From a virus, in IMG/VR virus record IMGVR_UViG_3300042549_000779, positions 1 to 24,090 of that record: a stretch of DNA of 24,090 bases, one strand, 5' to 3'. The notes under the pieces are model-generated. The model ran no database searches and was not told where the DNA came from. It saw only the letters and a program-made list of their open reading frames with translations. The first letter of the stretch is position 1. Each line of letters begins with the position of its first letter. Positions 3,922 through 12,633 of the stretch are shown piece by piece. Both the position numbers and the translations under genes were made by a program.

Positions 3922-5558
3922 GTCGTTCCTTTCTTGTATTCACCGTCTAGTGGGCAGCGAAGACCTAAGACTTCTCCTGCTTCCTTGATACTGCTTACTG
4001 CTAACTTACCTACTGCATCTGCATCTTCCTGACTGCATTCGATCTGCCACTCGTCATGAACATTAGCTACGAAGTGGGCATTAAGTTTCTGCTGCTGAAT
4101 CTTACTGTTTAATATGACCAAACCTTGCTTCATCACTATTGCACCAGCACTCTGCAGGAGTGTGTTAAGTGCTGCGTGTGCGGAACGAACCTGTAGTTTC
4201 CTACCGTCCAGACCTGGTAGCGTCCCTTGTTCTGATAGGCGTTCAACCTTTTCTCTAAGACTCTTGAGAGCAGGAGTGTTGCGAAGAAAATTACTGATGA
4301 GTTCCTGACCATCTTTTGCCGAACCACCAACAATCTTCCCGATTTTGGCAGGCCCCGCACCGTAGAGTAAGGCATAAATAAATGTTTTGGCTTGCGCCCT
4401 TGTTTCCAAACCTGCAGCGAGTTGGTTTTTCGTGTGTACATCGCCTTCAACGATTTCTTTTGCATAGCTTTCATCCTTCATATAGTGTGCCAACATCCGT
4501 AACTCAAGAGAACTAGCGTCTGCACCCACTAAGACCTTACCATCGTCCACTGTCCAGCAATCCCTGCACTCGTGCCCCCAAGGACTACTACTGCTAGGAA
4601 CCTGAGCCATGTTAGGGCTGTGGTGTGTCATACGTCCCGTGACTGCTCCATTGGTGATGACCTTACCGTGAACCCTGCGCTCGTCAGATACAAACTCAAG
4701 CCATGATTCAACCTGAGCCACCCGTTTCTGAATGAGTAGGTACTCTGCGATTCTCTTTGCTTCAGGAATATCAACTCCGTCAAGAACTGATTCGTCAACA
4801 ATTACAGCTCCTTTCTCAGTGTGCTTAGTAGGTTTCCATCCCTTCTCAATCAACCGCTTTGCTATCTGCTGGCGTGAACCAGGATTAAATACCTCAACAT
4901 CATCCTTCAACTGCTTGCCTGTCTTCTCACTAAACCTTTGAGTGACAATGGGCGGGAAAATGGTTTGCAGTTCCTCTTCAATGTCAGACAGTCTACGCTT
5001 CCATTGTCCAAGCAGGCACTGGGCTTTCACAGTATCAAGTTTAAAGCCATGCTTCTCCTGCTTAGTAATGACAGCCTGCACCTTGTGCTCTAGCTCGATG
5101 GACTGCTCAGAGAACCCACGCAGCTCTTGCGTCAGATATAGGTACAACTCACCACAGATTGTCACGTCTTCTTGACAGTACTCAATCATCTTATCTGTCA
5201 GGCCGCCCTCGAAATCTTCGTATTCCTTCTTGGTTCGGTTTACTAGCTTTGCGAGATTGGCTAGACTGTGTCCACCCTCTCTTGACGGGCTTGAGAGTCT
5301 TGACATAACCAGTGTGTCCCGTACTTGGCTCAGTCTGATCGAAGTCTTCCATAGTCTGTTTAGGACGGGGTAGTCGAATGATATTCCGTTGTGAGCGATT
5401 ATCAGTTTGGCTTGCTGAATAAACTTGTTGAAGTCTTGTGCGCTTGTCCATGTCCTTATTTCTTTAGTGTCAATGTCATAGGTACAGCATACCCAAATAC
5501 AGTCATGCTTTAGATTAGTTTCGATATCCAGTGCAACTCTCATGTAGGTAGATTCCAT
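3903..5558 (-). CDS. DNA polymerase, family A (T7-like), with 3'-5' exonuclease domain
   Basis: This 551-residue replicative polymerase is compact compared with T7 (about 700). The proofreading domain shows DIETN (Asp11, Glu13), AHNGISFD (Asn57, Asp62) and YCQED (Asp131). The polymerase domain shows motif A GADASSLELR (Asp347), motif B RAQAKTFIYALLYG (Arg387, Lys391, Tyr395, Tyr399) and motif C VHDEW (His501, Asp502, Glu503). All catalytic residues are present. The residue matching Klenow 762 is tyrosine, as in T7. A second in-frame ATG at 5543 (MRVALDIETN) may be the true start, since the first ATG has its AGGA too close. The start overlaps the FkbM gene. A weaker promoter lies just upstream at 5576-5604. 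Confidence 0.95.
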   Translation of the reverse strand: MESTYMRVALDIETNLKHDCIWVCCTYDIDTKEIRTWTSAQDFNKFIQQAKLIIAHNGISFDYPVLNRLWKTSIRLSQVRDTLVMSRLSSPSREGGHSLANLAKLVNRTKKEYEDFEGGLTDKMIEYCQEDVTICGELYLYLTQELRGFSEQSIELEHKVQAVITKQEKHGFKLDTVKAQCLLGQWKRRLSDIEEELQTIFPPIVTQRFSEKTGKQLKDDVEVFNPGSRQQIAKRLIEKGWKPTKHTEKGAVIVDESVLDGVDIPEAKRIAEYLLIQKRVAQVESWLEFVSDERRVHGKVITNGAVTGRMTHHSPNMAQVPSSSSPWGHECRDCWTVDDGKVLVGADASSLELRMLAHYMKDESYAKEIVEGDVHTKNQLAAGLETRAQAKTFIYALLYGAGPAKIGKIVGGSAKDGQELISNFLRNTPALKSLREKVERLSEQGTLPGLDGRKLQVRSAHAALNTLLQSAGAIVMKQGLVILNSKIQQQKLNAHFVANVHDEWQIECSQEDADAVGKLAVSSIKEAGEVLGLRCPLDGEYKKGTTWAQTH

Positions 5559-6156
5559 TTCCTATTGTGTTAAATATTTTATCATACTTTAGAAGTTTTA
5601 GCAAGTTATCAAAGTATCCTACCTTCCCATGATTCTCCACACAGATGATCTTAGGTCTACCCAACATCGTCTGGAGCACTGGGTAGTCCAGCCCTTCTAT
5701 GTCGATACACAATAAATCAGGGACACCATACTCAGCGTATAAGCTGTCTAAAGTTACAACCTTTATTGGTACTACCTTATTTAGCTTGAACTCAGGGTGC
5801 AGCTTAATAAACTGAAGCACTGTATCGTAGTCAAAGCTGTTCCTACCTGAGAAGTCATCAATCATAAAAAACTCCAACTCACCAGCCACAGGCCCTACTC
5901 CCACATTCAGTATCGTATCCCTGCCACGATGCCTGTTGAAAGCCTCTATGTGGTTTGGGTTTGCCTCCACACAGATCCCTGAGTGTCCACGTTCGTACAG
6001 AAGAGCAGTGTTACTGATATTGAAAGGATGGTGTGCCCCAACATCGAAGTAGCTGCACTTCTTAATTTCTAGTTTGTCAAGTATATTAAGAAGTATTAAG
6101 TCTTCTCCGAACTGAGAGTAGGTTCTATCACCGTATCGCTGATCAGGATGACTCAT
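5515..6156 (-). CDS. FkbM-family methyltransferase
   Basis: This 213-residue protein has the FkbM layout: SQFGEDLILLNIL (about 14-26), the SAM-binding strand SYFDVGAHHP (Asp38, Gly40), the second acidic site CVEANPNHIEAF (Glu64), and LLCIDIEGLDYPVL (Asp152, Glu154), ending in CVENHG and YFDNLLK. Such enzymes O-methylate sugars or small molecules using S-adenosylmethionine. Placed between the winged-helix gene and DNA polymerase, it is an accessory insertion in the replication operon. Its ATG forms a 4-base ATGA overlap with the preceding stop. It may act with the glycosyltransferase-like gene at the left edge on a glycan of virion or host; the substrate is unknown. Confidence 0.85.
   Translation of the reverse strand: MSHPDQRYGDRTYSQFGEDLILLNILDKLEIKKCSYFDVGAHHPFNISNTALLYERGHSGICVEANPNHIEAFNRHRGRDTILNVGVGPVAGELEFFMIDDFSGRNSFDYDTVLQFIKLHPEFKLNKVVPIKVVTLDSLYAEYGVPDLLCIDIEGLDYPVLQTMLGRPKIICVENHGKVGYFDNLLKLLKYDKIFNTIGNGIYLHESCTGYRN
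5576..5604 (-). promoter_or_regulatory. Likely moderate sigma70 promoter before DNA polymerase
   Basis: On the minus strand TTGCTA (5604-5599), a 17-base spacer and TAAAAT (5581-5576) lie within the 3' end of the FkbM gene. The spacer shares a CT-TAAA pattern with the two plus-strand promoters. The hexamers match the consensus at 4/6 and 5/6 positions, so it is weaker than the others. Confidence 0.45.
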
Positions 6157-10467: not shown

Positions 10468-11112
10468 TTAAGCCCCTTTGATAGATAGAATTTTAATAAC
10501 CTTCGACATTTTCTTACCATGTGCCGGATAAGACACCAAAGGCACAGCCTTATCATAGCACGCTCTACAGCCATTGCACCTGCCCTCATGCTCATAAGCC
10601 CTACACAAAAAGCCCTTAGCCTGAGAAGGATCAGGGACAATGACTGAGCCATGCTCCGAAGTATATTCACCCATGACGCTATCCGAGGAAAAGCGAACCA
10701 TGACATTAGGCAGTTGTTGCATTTTAGAGACAATGCCCTTAAACTTCTCAAACTTCACCATGCGAGTAGGTAGCCAATGCTTTACCCACGGTGTCTGCTC
10801 CATTACTGAGAGGATCTTTTCCGCTAGTCCTAAAGAGTACATATCGCCCGAGTCGAACCAGCGGAAGTATCTTTGAGACTCTAGAGCATTGATCATTCTT
10901 TCCTCCCAGTCGCTAGCCTTCCAGTCTTCTTGATTCTCTAGCCTTGGAGCTTTGACATTAGAGAATCGATAGTTACCCGTGGTGGCATAGCATCCTGAAC
11001 AAGCGGCTACCAATTCACCGTTATCGCCTATTGAACCGGGACAAGTGTCGAGGGCTTGAAGTGACCATGACAGAATACCGTCAAGTTTTGAAGTCTTTGA
11101 GAGTTTTAACAT
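10468..11112 (-). CDS. GP88 family protein (cysteine-rich, unknown function)
   Basis: This 214-residue protein matches the phage GP88 family: KLSKTSKLDG (about 3-12), LDTCPGSIGDNGELVAACSG (about 21-40), CYATTGNYRFSNVKAPR, RYFRWFDSGDMY (about 81-92), LAEKILSVMEQTPWVKHWLP and VRFSSDSVMG. Seven cysteines, three near the N-terminus (24, 38, 41) and four near the C-terminus (170, 179, 182, 185), suggest a bound metal or Fe-S cluster. Function is not established. The ATG lies 26 bases past a hammerhead ribozyme, so its message would carry a short, self-cut 5' leader (32 bases) with a GAAGGGA ribosome site. Confidence 0.85.
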   Translation of the reverse strand: MLKLSKTSKLDGILSWSLQALDTCPGSIGDNGELVAACSGCYATTGNYRFSNVKAPRLENQEDWKASDWEERMINALESQRYFRWFDSGDMYSLGLAEKILSVMEQTPWVKHWLPTRMVKFEKFKGIVSKMQQLPNVMVRFSSDSVMGEYTSEHGSVIVPDPSQAKGFLCRAYEHEGRCNGCRACYDKAVPLVSYPAHGKKMSKVIKILSIKGA

Positions 11113-11138
11113 TTTAGAATCCCTTCGTTAGTTTACTT

Positions 11139-11190
11139 GCCTAAGACCGTATCCCTACGGTTTCGCCTCATCAAGGCTCGTCAGTTAGGC
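11139..11190 (-). ncRNA. Type I hammerhead ribozyme, copy 1 (between 74-aa gene and GP88)
   Basis: Read on the minus strand from 11190 the parts are: stem I GCCTAA; core CTGACGA (the conserved CUGANGA); stem II GCCT-TGATG-AGGC; core GAAA; stem III CCGTA-GGGA-TACGG, capped by a GNRA loop; cleavage triplet end TC (with the stem III G, a canonical GUC); then TTAGGC closing stem I. Stem I is the open helix, making it type I. Cleavage is expected after the C at 11145. All invariant nucleotides are present, including G10.1-C11.1 and A15.1-U16.1. The first base is the last base of the upstream gene's TAG stop codon. Confidence 0.9.
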
Positions 11191-11414
11191 TAGACCGGCT
11201 CTATGCTTTTGTCAACAGTATACCCTGCTTTTCCTAATCCCTCTGCAATTTCTTTAGGGAAACAATAAACCCCGTCATAATCTATCAGTGTTTTTCCGTT
11301 GAATACTAGACCGCCTGAATAGCCCCAATCAACATTGGCGCTAATCTCGAAACTGCCTAAGCGATTGTTATTTTCAGGCGTGTAGATAGTGAAGTGTTTT
11401 GTTGTAATTTTCAT
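11190..11414 (-). CDS. Small hypothetical protein flanked by two ribozymes, 74 aa
   Basis: I do not recognise this protein. It opens MKITTKHFTIYTPENNNRLG, is beta-rich with FEISANVDWGYSGGLVFNGK (about 22-41) and ends YTVDKSIEPV. No membrane segment or metal site is seen. AAAAGGAC precedes the ATG at a good distance. A hammerhead ribozyme ends 24 bases before the ATG and another begins at its stop codon, so after self-cleavage it would be a monocistronic message with a 30-base 5'-OH leader. Confidence 0.7.
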   Translation of the reverse strand: MKITTKHFTIYTPENNNRLGSFEISANVDWGYSGGLVFNGKTLIDYDGVYCFPKEIAEGLGKAGYTVDKSIEPV

Positions 11415-11438
11415 GGTGTAGTCCTTTTTAGTTAGTTT

Positions 11439-11490
11439 GCCTAAGACTGTCTCTCGACAGTTTCGCCGCTTAACGGCTCGTCAGTTAGGC
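11439..11490 (-). ncRNA. Type I hammerhead ribozyme, copy 2 (between 114-aa and 74-aa genes)
   Basis: On the minus strand from 11490: stem I GCCTAA; core CTGACGA; stem II GCCG-TTAAG-CGGC; GAAA; stem III CTGTC-GAGA-GACAG with a GNRA loop; TC; TTAGGC. It is the same size as copy 1 and exactly 300 bases away. The stems differ from copy 1 at three positions, each by a compensated pair (stem II pair 4, stem III pairs 2 and 5), while the core and stem I are identical. Cleavage is expected after the C at 11445. The upstream gene's last codon and TAA stop (GCC TAA) are themselves the 5' strand of stem I. Confidence 0.92.
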
Positions 11491-11829
11491 TGTAAATAGA
11501 TGCTGGTCGATGTTCTCGCAGTAGTCGTTAATTTTTTCCATGACTAACTGCTCGAACCCTTCGGTGATTGTGTAATCGTTGATCAAGTCCCAGCCGTCAT
11601 TTCCGTAGACTAGGAAGACTGCCGCTTTTTTGTTCTTATCAGGCGATAGAAAAACTAGGTGGATCTCGTCAACATTGAGACACATAGAGACTATGCTCTC
11701 GTAATCGCTGTCCTTCTCGAACCCGTCTCCGTAGTCGTAGCCAATACAGCCCCAGCCAGCATCGTTAGCGGTCAGTAACAGCTCTCGTGTTACCTGCTCT
11801 TCTATCTTGCGGACTATCTTGCGTTCCAT
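11485..11829 (-). CDS. Hypothetical protein, first gene of the leftward operon, 114 aa
   Basis: I do not recognise this protein. It starts MERKIVRKIEEQVTRELLLT, has GWGCIGYDYGDGFEKDSDYE (about 25-44), a hydrophobic strand pair IHLVFLSPDKNKKAAVFLVY (about 56-75) and ends ENIDQHLFTA. An AAAGGA site lies 7 bases before the ATG. Being promoter-proximal in the leftward direction, it is likely an early gene. Its GCC TAA end doubles as the 5' strand of hammerhead stem I, so the last alanine codon is constrained by the ribozyme. Confidence 0.7.
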   Translation of the reverse strand: MERKIVRKIEEQVTRELLLTANDAGWGCIGYDYGDGFEKDSDYESIVSMCLNVDEIHLVFLSPDKNKKAAVFLVYGNDGWDLINDYTITEGFEQLVMEKINDYCENIDQHLFTA

Positions 11830-12604: not shown

Positions 12605-12633
12605 TTGACAAATCTCTAAAAATATGCTATAAT
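12605..12633 (+). promoter_or_regulatory. Perfect sigma70 promoter for the terminase operon
   Basis: TTGACA (12605-12610), a 17-base spacer ending TATGC, and TATAAT (12628-12633) match the consensus fully. The expected start is about 12640, leaving a 183-base leader before the GTG of the small terminase gene. The spacer shares the CTCTAAA core with the promoter at 16597. Confidence 0.9.

Follow-up and report, generated by a model that had tools for sequence, protein, structure and literature searches.

The stretch of DNA analysed here, referred to below as the window, comprises 24,090 nt (positions 1 to 24,090 of the IMG/VR virus record IMGVR_UViG_3300042549_000779), in which the terminase, portal and major capsid genes are oriented rightward, and the replication genes and small genes form a leftward block. 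In the latter, a 114-aa gene, a 74-aa gene and a 214-aa GP88-family gene follow one another on the minus strand, and a hammerhead is found at both junctions (Table 1). Comparison of the 74-aa product with Pfam and PHROG returned no family match. The start codon of the GP88-family gene, with an AAGG ribosome-binding sequence, lies 32 nt past the cleavage site predicted for copy 2. Elsewhere in the window, a perfect sigma-70 promoter (TTGACA-17-TATAAT, with TG preceding the second hexamer) is found 5' of the terminase-portal-capsid operon and a second strong one 5' of the primase-helicase block, and an FkbM-type methyltransferase gene is located between the primase-helicase and DNA polymerase genes.

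Table 1. Features of the hammerhead region and of its surroundings in the window
Feature	Position	Strand	Remarks
114-aa ORF	11485..11829	-	phrog_4158 (function unknown); 5' of copy 1
Type I hammerhead copy 1	11490-11439	-	52 nt; predicted GUC cleavage after C17 = 11445
74-aa ORF	11190..11414	-	flanked by both hammerheads
Type I hammerhead copy 2	11190-11139	-	52 nt; predicted GUC cleavage after C17 = 11145
214-aa GP88-family ORF	10468..11112	-	PF17338, Pfam 103.5 bits; 3' of copy 2
Hammerhead-gene-hammerhead cassette	11138..11491	-	corresponds to L222 8173-8528
Perfect sigma-70 promoter	12605-12633	+	
Second strong sigma-70 promoter	8373-8345	-	
FkbM-type methyltransferase gene	5515-6156	-	PF05050

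Both elements present the type I topology, in which stem I is open and stems II and III are closed by loops. Read 5' to 3' on the minus strand, copy 1 is GCCUAA CUGACGA GCCGUUAAGCGGC GAA ACUGUCGAGAGACAGU C UUAGGC and copy 2 is GCCUAA CUGACGA GCCUUGAUGAGGC GAA ACCGUAGGGAUACGGU C UUAGGC. Copy 1 is composed of a 6-bp stem I, a 4-bp stem II with the loop UUAAG and a stem III with a GAGA loop, and in copy 2 the loops of stems II and III are UGAUG and GGGA, respectively. The stem I strands are identical in the two copies, and stems II and III differ by compensatory changes. As an earlier note on this DNA had described, both copies carry the core CUGANGA and GAAA, a GUC triplet, three stems and GNRA stem III loops; the core, including UH and the pairs G10.1-C11.1 and A15.1-U16.1, is intact in both and in 42 of 42 aligned relatives. 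The same note had placed cleavage after 11445 and 11145, and C17 falls precisely there, its position in the canonical core making these the predicted cut sites. It was verified that the three-way junction is the minimum free energy structure of both copies in single-sequence folding (z of -3.65 and -1.73), and that the pattern combining the core with UUAGGC occurs twice in the window against 0.01 matches expected by chance. The presence of two complete tandem type I hammerheads is thereby confirmed, and both are predicted to cleave themselves.

The Rfam type I covariance test that the earlier note had proposed came out negative, since Rfam 15 gave no match at the gathering score in the window and relaxing the cut-off brought up nothing but mis-threaded type III matches, whose 25.5 and 23.4 bits fall short of the 48.5 required. 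This miss is a library gap, because Rfam also reports no hammerhead of the class in 26 other loci. The class shares with the Rfam families (RF00163 for type I, RF00008 for type III and their relatives) the catalytic core, the three-way junction and the type I topology, but none of its tested members attains the gathering score. Rfam was rejected as arbiter of the class, its threshold being a property of the library rather than a biochemical criterion, and, as it failed for the whole class, a dedicated covariance model, R1, was built from 42 equal-length sequences, namely the two window copies and 40 from viral contigs. R1 assigned 73.5 bits to copy 1 (E 7.5e-17, span 11437-11492) and 72.6 bits to copy 2 (E 1.3e-16, span 11137-11192), both of which belong to its training set, and found no third copy in the window, where the next-best site scored 12.5 bits. 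In the 42-sequence alignment, 99.7% of the cells were paired, versus 67.8% in shuffled alignments and 26-34% in slid structures; double changes were observed at 12 of the 16 pairs, and neither the paired percentage nor the covariation score was matched by any of 500 shuffles. These double changes are spread across all three stems, which covary.

The missing Rfam match and the occurrence of only two copies in the window could suggest decayed or chance structures, or else intrinsic terminators or protein-binding hairpins that mimic hammerheads. Such an explanation is, however, extremely improbable considering the chance expectation of 0.01, the covariation of three stems and the invariance of the unpaired core. 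The intrinsic terminator was rejected, since no T-run follows stem III and no terminator-like site was detected on the minus strand of the cassette.

Members of the class are common across virus contigs, and bacterial genomes contain almost none. The pattern with the stem I of the window matched 113 virus contigs, and patterns leaving stem I or stem II free each matched at least 120 viral stretches, while 257 Gb of bacterial genomes contained 16 pattern matches, of which five or six were judged convincing. The bacterial assemblies with such a copy (L402, L409, L411 and L415) are those of Daejeonella, a Bacteroidia MAG, Mucilaginibacter sp. SP1R1 and a Verrucomicrobia MAG, where it may belong to a prophage or to mis-binned phage DNA. 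With a pattern that carries no pairing requirement, stem I measured exactly 6 bp in 142 of 145 among the matches listed. Additionally, the core was intact in all 59 extra copies that the model found in the same loci and that had not been selected by the scan pattern; decayed cores are thus nearly absent from the class, and since the model rewards the core some broken copies could escape it, although typical scores leave a wide margin. In multi-copy loci all copies lie on one strand; they number up to 6 in a locus and 7 in each of two phage records. The arrangement in which several hammerheads of one strand flank single genes of a phage operon was observed in the window and in about 50 other loci. 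A single unannotated copy was also found in the cultured Pelagibacter phage HTVC142P (OR420754.1, L305:663-726) between gp3 and gp4, with the gp3 stop codon within stem I and the placement typical of the class, and this cultured phage allows 5'-OH ends to be mapped in a real infection. Because annotation based on Rfam misses the class, phage genomes under-report ribozymes.

The position of the copies relative to the flanking codons is consistent. The UAA stop of the 114-aa gene is formed by nucleotides 2.3-2.1 of copy 1 stem I, and A2.7 and G2.6 of copy 2 contribute to the UAG stop of the 74-aa gene. Therefore, the location between three small genes that the earlier note had given to the copies holds as regards the junctions, but they are not purely intergenic, since the upstream stops use ribozyme nucleotides. 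Among the matches listed, the stop codon was a UAG at 2.8-2.6 in 17 contexts, a UAA or UGA ending at 2.7 in 15, a UAA at 2.3-2.1, the form of copy 1, in 15, the catalytic U4G5A6 in 19 and a UAA or UGA in loop II in 11, and the window displays two of these forms. In 83 of the 121 contexts listed, the longest upstream ORF ended between -6 and +16 nt relative to C3, compared with 10 of 64 in the antisense control, and the downstream start was found 20-50 nt past the cut in 64 of 98 contexts among the matches listed. An upstream stop before the cut combined with a downstream start after it was recorded in 94 of 125 contexts among the matches listed, and cleavage at the predicted sites would therefore spare both ORFs, in agreement with the coding-strand tandem placement that had been noted before. 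Neither the stop codons made of ribozyme nucleotides nor the behaviour as a transferable cassette discussed below was part of that earlier account. With at least 120 viral stretches per scan, invariant cores and consistent stop and start placement, the class constitutes a large testable set.

These elements probably delimit a ribozyme-bounded accessory-gene cassette in a leftward phage operon whose transcripts cut themselves into single-gene mRNAs. The polycistronic RNA would be cut once per ribozyme, just past the preceding stop and about 30 nt before the next start. In this case, cutting would free the 74-aa gene as an mRNA of 300 nt (11444-11145) whose 5'-OH leader carries its own ribosome-binding site and whose 3' end is made of the stem II and stem III hairpins and a 2',3'-cyclic phosphate, while the upstream mRNA would retain its stop codon and terminate in the same type of hairpins. 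A gene with a ribozyme at one or both ends would be independent of new neighbours, and the fusion of the stop codon with the ribozyme and the following leader would let it enter a new operon together with its own RNA separator. In addition, given the overlap of the stop codons with stem I or the core, a ribosome terminating there should keep the ribozyme from closing, and it may be conjectured that cutting is translation-gated. A broader proposal, which we advance tentatively and consider rather doubtful, is that of an RNA-level cassette system of phages, in which the stop-fused ribozyme would give expression autonomy, set the boundaries of exchange and organise the mosaic accessory regions of virulent phages, with upstream translation gating the cut through a ribosome that terminates over stem I or over the catalytic UGA.

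The transfer of such units is suggested by comparison with other phages. The window and a 10.7-kb contig, L222, share 80.6% identity over 356 nt, from outer edge to outer edge of the ribozymes and, cross-matches between ribozymes aside, this cassette is their sole strong nucleotide match, the neighbour genes being different. The L222 homolog of the 74-aa protein (78% identical, 74/74 aa), likewise encoded between two hammerheads, came from this comparison of flanks, exact peptide patterns having found no relatives. The GP88 gene of L222 lies upstream of the cassette, in an arrangement unlike that of the window, and an ArdC-like anti-restriction gene (L222:8547-9311) is found 3' of it. L418/L419 carry a 93% identical homolog of the 114-aa gene, which has the end GCCTAACCAACGAAAGG and runs into another gene without a ribozyme, and a 78-aa gene with its ribozyme precedes GP88 in L006 and a different gene in L418. 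The GP88 homologs of L002-L007 are 89-95% identical and mostly have no hammerhead upstream. As a hammerhead was located upstream of GP88 in only 1 of 80 loci with a GP88 relative, it was rejected as a fixed feature of that position. The ribozymes are dispensable, because close relatives do without them at the same junctions, and such closely related phages with and without the ribozyme are natural comparison pairs. As a separate observation, GP88-family genes (PF17338) adjoin hammerheads in three dissimilar phages (the window, L203:13265-14095 and L222:6835-7566).

Mosaicism at gene borders is common in phages. Across all loci, one-sided similarity, which stops at the junction, was found at 94%, 76% and 22% of the ribozyme junctions for best identities below 80%, of 80-95% and of 95% or more, respectively, versus 65%, 55% and 6% at small-gene junctions 150-1500 nt away and 59%, 19% and 0% at more distant ones, counts that are pairwise and non-independent, with a nearby control that is itself high in two of the three identity bands. 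Because the pairs are not independent, the excess is a tendency and not a clean-probability test; as a tendency, mosaic breakpoints are more frequent at ribozyme junctions than at gene junctions nearby. The ribozyme sequences could act as repeated short homology for cassette exchange by recombination, which would account for the breakpoints. We infer that cleavage takes place in the cell, with effects on mRNA stability or translation, and that recombination at the ribozymes underlies the mosaic pattern.

The enrichment of breakpoints, and the fact that the window cassette ends at the ribozymes, could also be expected if these were primarily DNA-level recombination sites of gene cassettes, either similar to integron attC or acting as homology islands, with self-cleavage being incidental. 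The attC R'' motif is RYYYAAC, which GCCTAAC resembles, but the 3' half reads CTTAGGC and is devoid of the G of GTTRRRY cut by integron integrases, and the identity with an integron attC site was rejected as a motif resemblance only. Moreover, stem I varies freely, with compensation, between the phages of the 42-sequence alignment, unlike a fixed recombinase site, DNA recombination alone has no need of a catalytic core that is invariant in 59 of 59 unselected copies, and none of the window proteins scanned was recognised as a tyrosine recombinase. This explanation is accordingly an unlikely one. The direct repeats CTAAC...CTAAC were observed at the insert ends of both window copies and of two relatives, and direct repeats at insert ends scored 3.67 in the whole family versus 3.52 in shuffled sequences.

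Another explanation for the spread of the units invokes excision and circularisation, in which the flanking hammerheads would free the unit RNA and its ends would be re-ligated, resulting in a circular mRNA or a retrozyme-like mobile RNA. Since the stem I strands are identical in the window, an excised RNA can base-pair through its 5' end with the copy downstream; of 88 pairs of adjacent copies, 46 can cross-pair in full, and adjacent copies resemble each other more in stem I than in stem II or III. However, context-orthologous ribozymes of different phages show the same slow change of stem I (0.75 vs 0.73), and the direction of cross-pairing is unbiased, with 13 cross-only against 15 reverse-only cases. 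Given that orthologs behave alike and that no directional bias exists, selection across copies is unsupported; this candidate, positive against random pairs, was dropped after the ortholog comparison. In addition, the scan of window proteins brought to light neither a reverse transcriptase nor an RNA ligase, and circular or spliced products had been sought in a previous study (PMC3088659), which found none. Retrozymes likewise consist of two hammerheads bracketing a mobile unit, but those are type III and belong to plant retroelements that move via circular RNA, whereas the window unit encodes a protein and shows no sign of circularisation. Circularisation thus appears improbable, and we retain the self-cutting, ribozyme-bounded cassette as the preferred reading.

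Another relevant aspect concerns the contact that could stabilise the fold. In this class, stem I is followed by a 2.7/1.7 mismatch, the identity of which tracks loop II: in loci not selected for base 1.7, this nucleotide was A in 132 cases and U in none with loops of the form U...U or U...G, and with loops ending in AA it was U in 34 of 36 and A in 2 of 36, counts that carry the shared descent of the loci and are not corrected for phylogeny. The natural members with a tetraloop combine a 6-bp stem I, a GNRA-like loop II and U at 1.7, and the window copies belong to the kind with A at 1.7 and a U-rich pentaloop, their loops ending in G, a minority form, and not in the usual U. In an engineered minimal hammerhead cited in PMC9217987, a U at 1.7, seven nucleotides after the cut, pairs with an A of the stem II tetraloop in trans-Hoogsteen geometry. 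This is the same combination found in the natural tetraloop members, and the window class has the swapped polarity, for which no natural counterpart was described in the accessible literature searched. The covariation would imply a tertiary lock of one contact with a natural A/U polarity swap, and a lock this small may be useful in ribozyme design. The type I hammerhead of Schistosoma also has an open stem I, and docking of loop II on the stem I region would be common to both; however, it uses an internal loop in stem I, whereas the class described here offers only the flanking mismatch 2.7/1.7. The cleavage rate at cellular Mg2+ may be low, because stem I is short and lacks the classical type I internal loop. 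A pseudoknot between loop II and the 3' flank, as in PMC3088659, was dropped as a candidate, since no signal was detected across the class (2.55 vs 2.51 shuffled).

The earlier note had regarded the bracketing of one gene by two type I hammerheads as a module apparently without precedent, hammerheads as such being known in phage sequences. This view is not sustained, because two hammerheads bracketing a phage gene are of a kind already reported by Perreault et al. 2011 (PMC3088659). According to that study, hammerhead clusters of types I-III are found on one strand around single genes or short blocks in prophages, with the examples of Clostridium scindens, Azorhizobium and the Agrobacterium ardA region (Fig. 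3), and single-gene mRNAs were proposed as their outcome; tandem phage-type arrays underwent cleavage in vitro, as did one array in E. coli. The same study leaves the hammerhead role in bacteria and phages as an open question, and PMC6155905 also considers the bacterial role open and the phage link persistent. The hammerheads of PMC3088659 come mainly from prophages, about 40% of them with a loop-flank pseudoknot, whereas the present class comes mostly from phage contigs and is distinguished by the lack of a pseudoknot signal, a fixed 6-bp stem I, stop-codon fusion and cassette sharing. The fixed 6-bp stem I, the stop codons built by the ribozyme and cassette sharing are not stated in the parts of that study consulted. 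Furthermore, none of the open papers searched reported the compact class or the fact that Rfam lacks it, nor the 1.7 rule, the fusion of stop codons with the ribozyme or the block shared from ribozyme to ribozyme.

An ardA gene is found downstream of hammerheads in PMC3088659, and the ArdC-like gene occupies the downstream position in L222; ribozyme clusters may therefore mark anti-defence regions. Some orthologous ribozymes (e.g., L196/L263 and L120/L180) have wholly different stems II and III together with near-identical stem I and one or both flanks, as though an exchange had replaced the interior of the ribozyme. Finally, a RAGATH-16 RNA (L214:479-549, 86 bits) was found on a virus contig that also bears a hammerhead.
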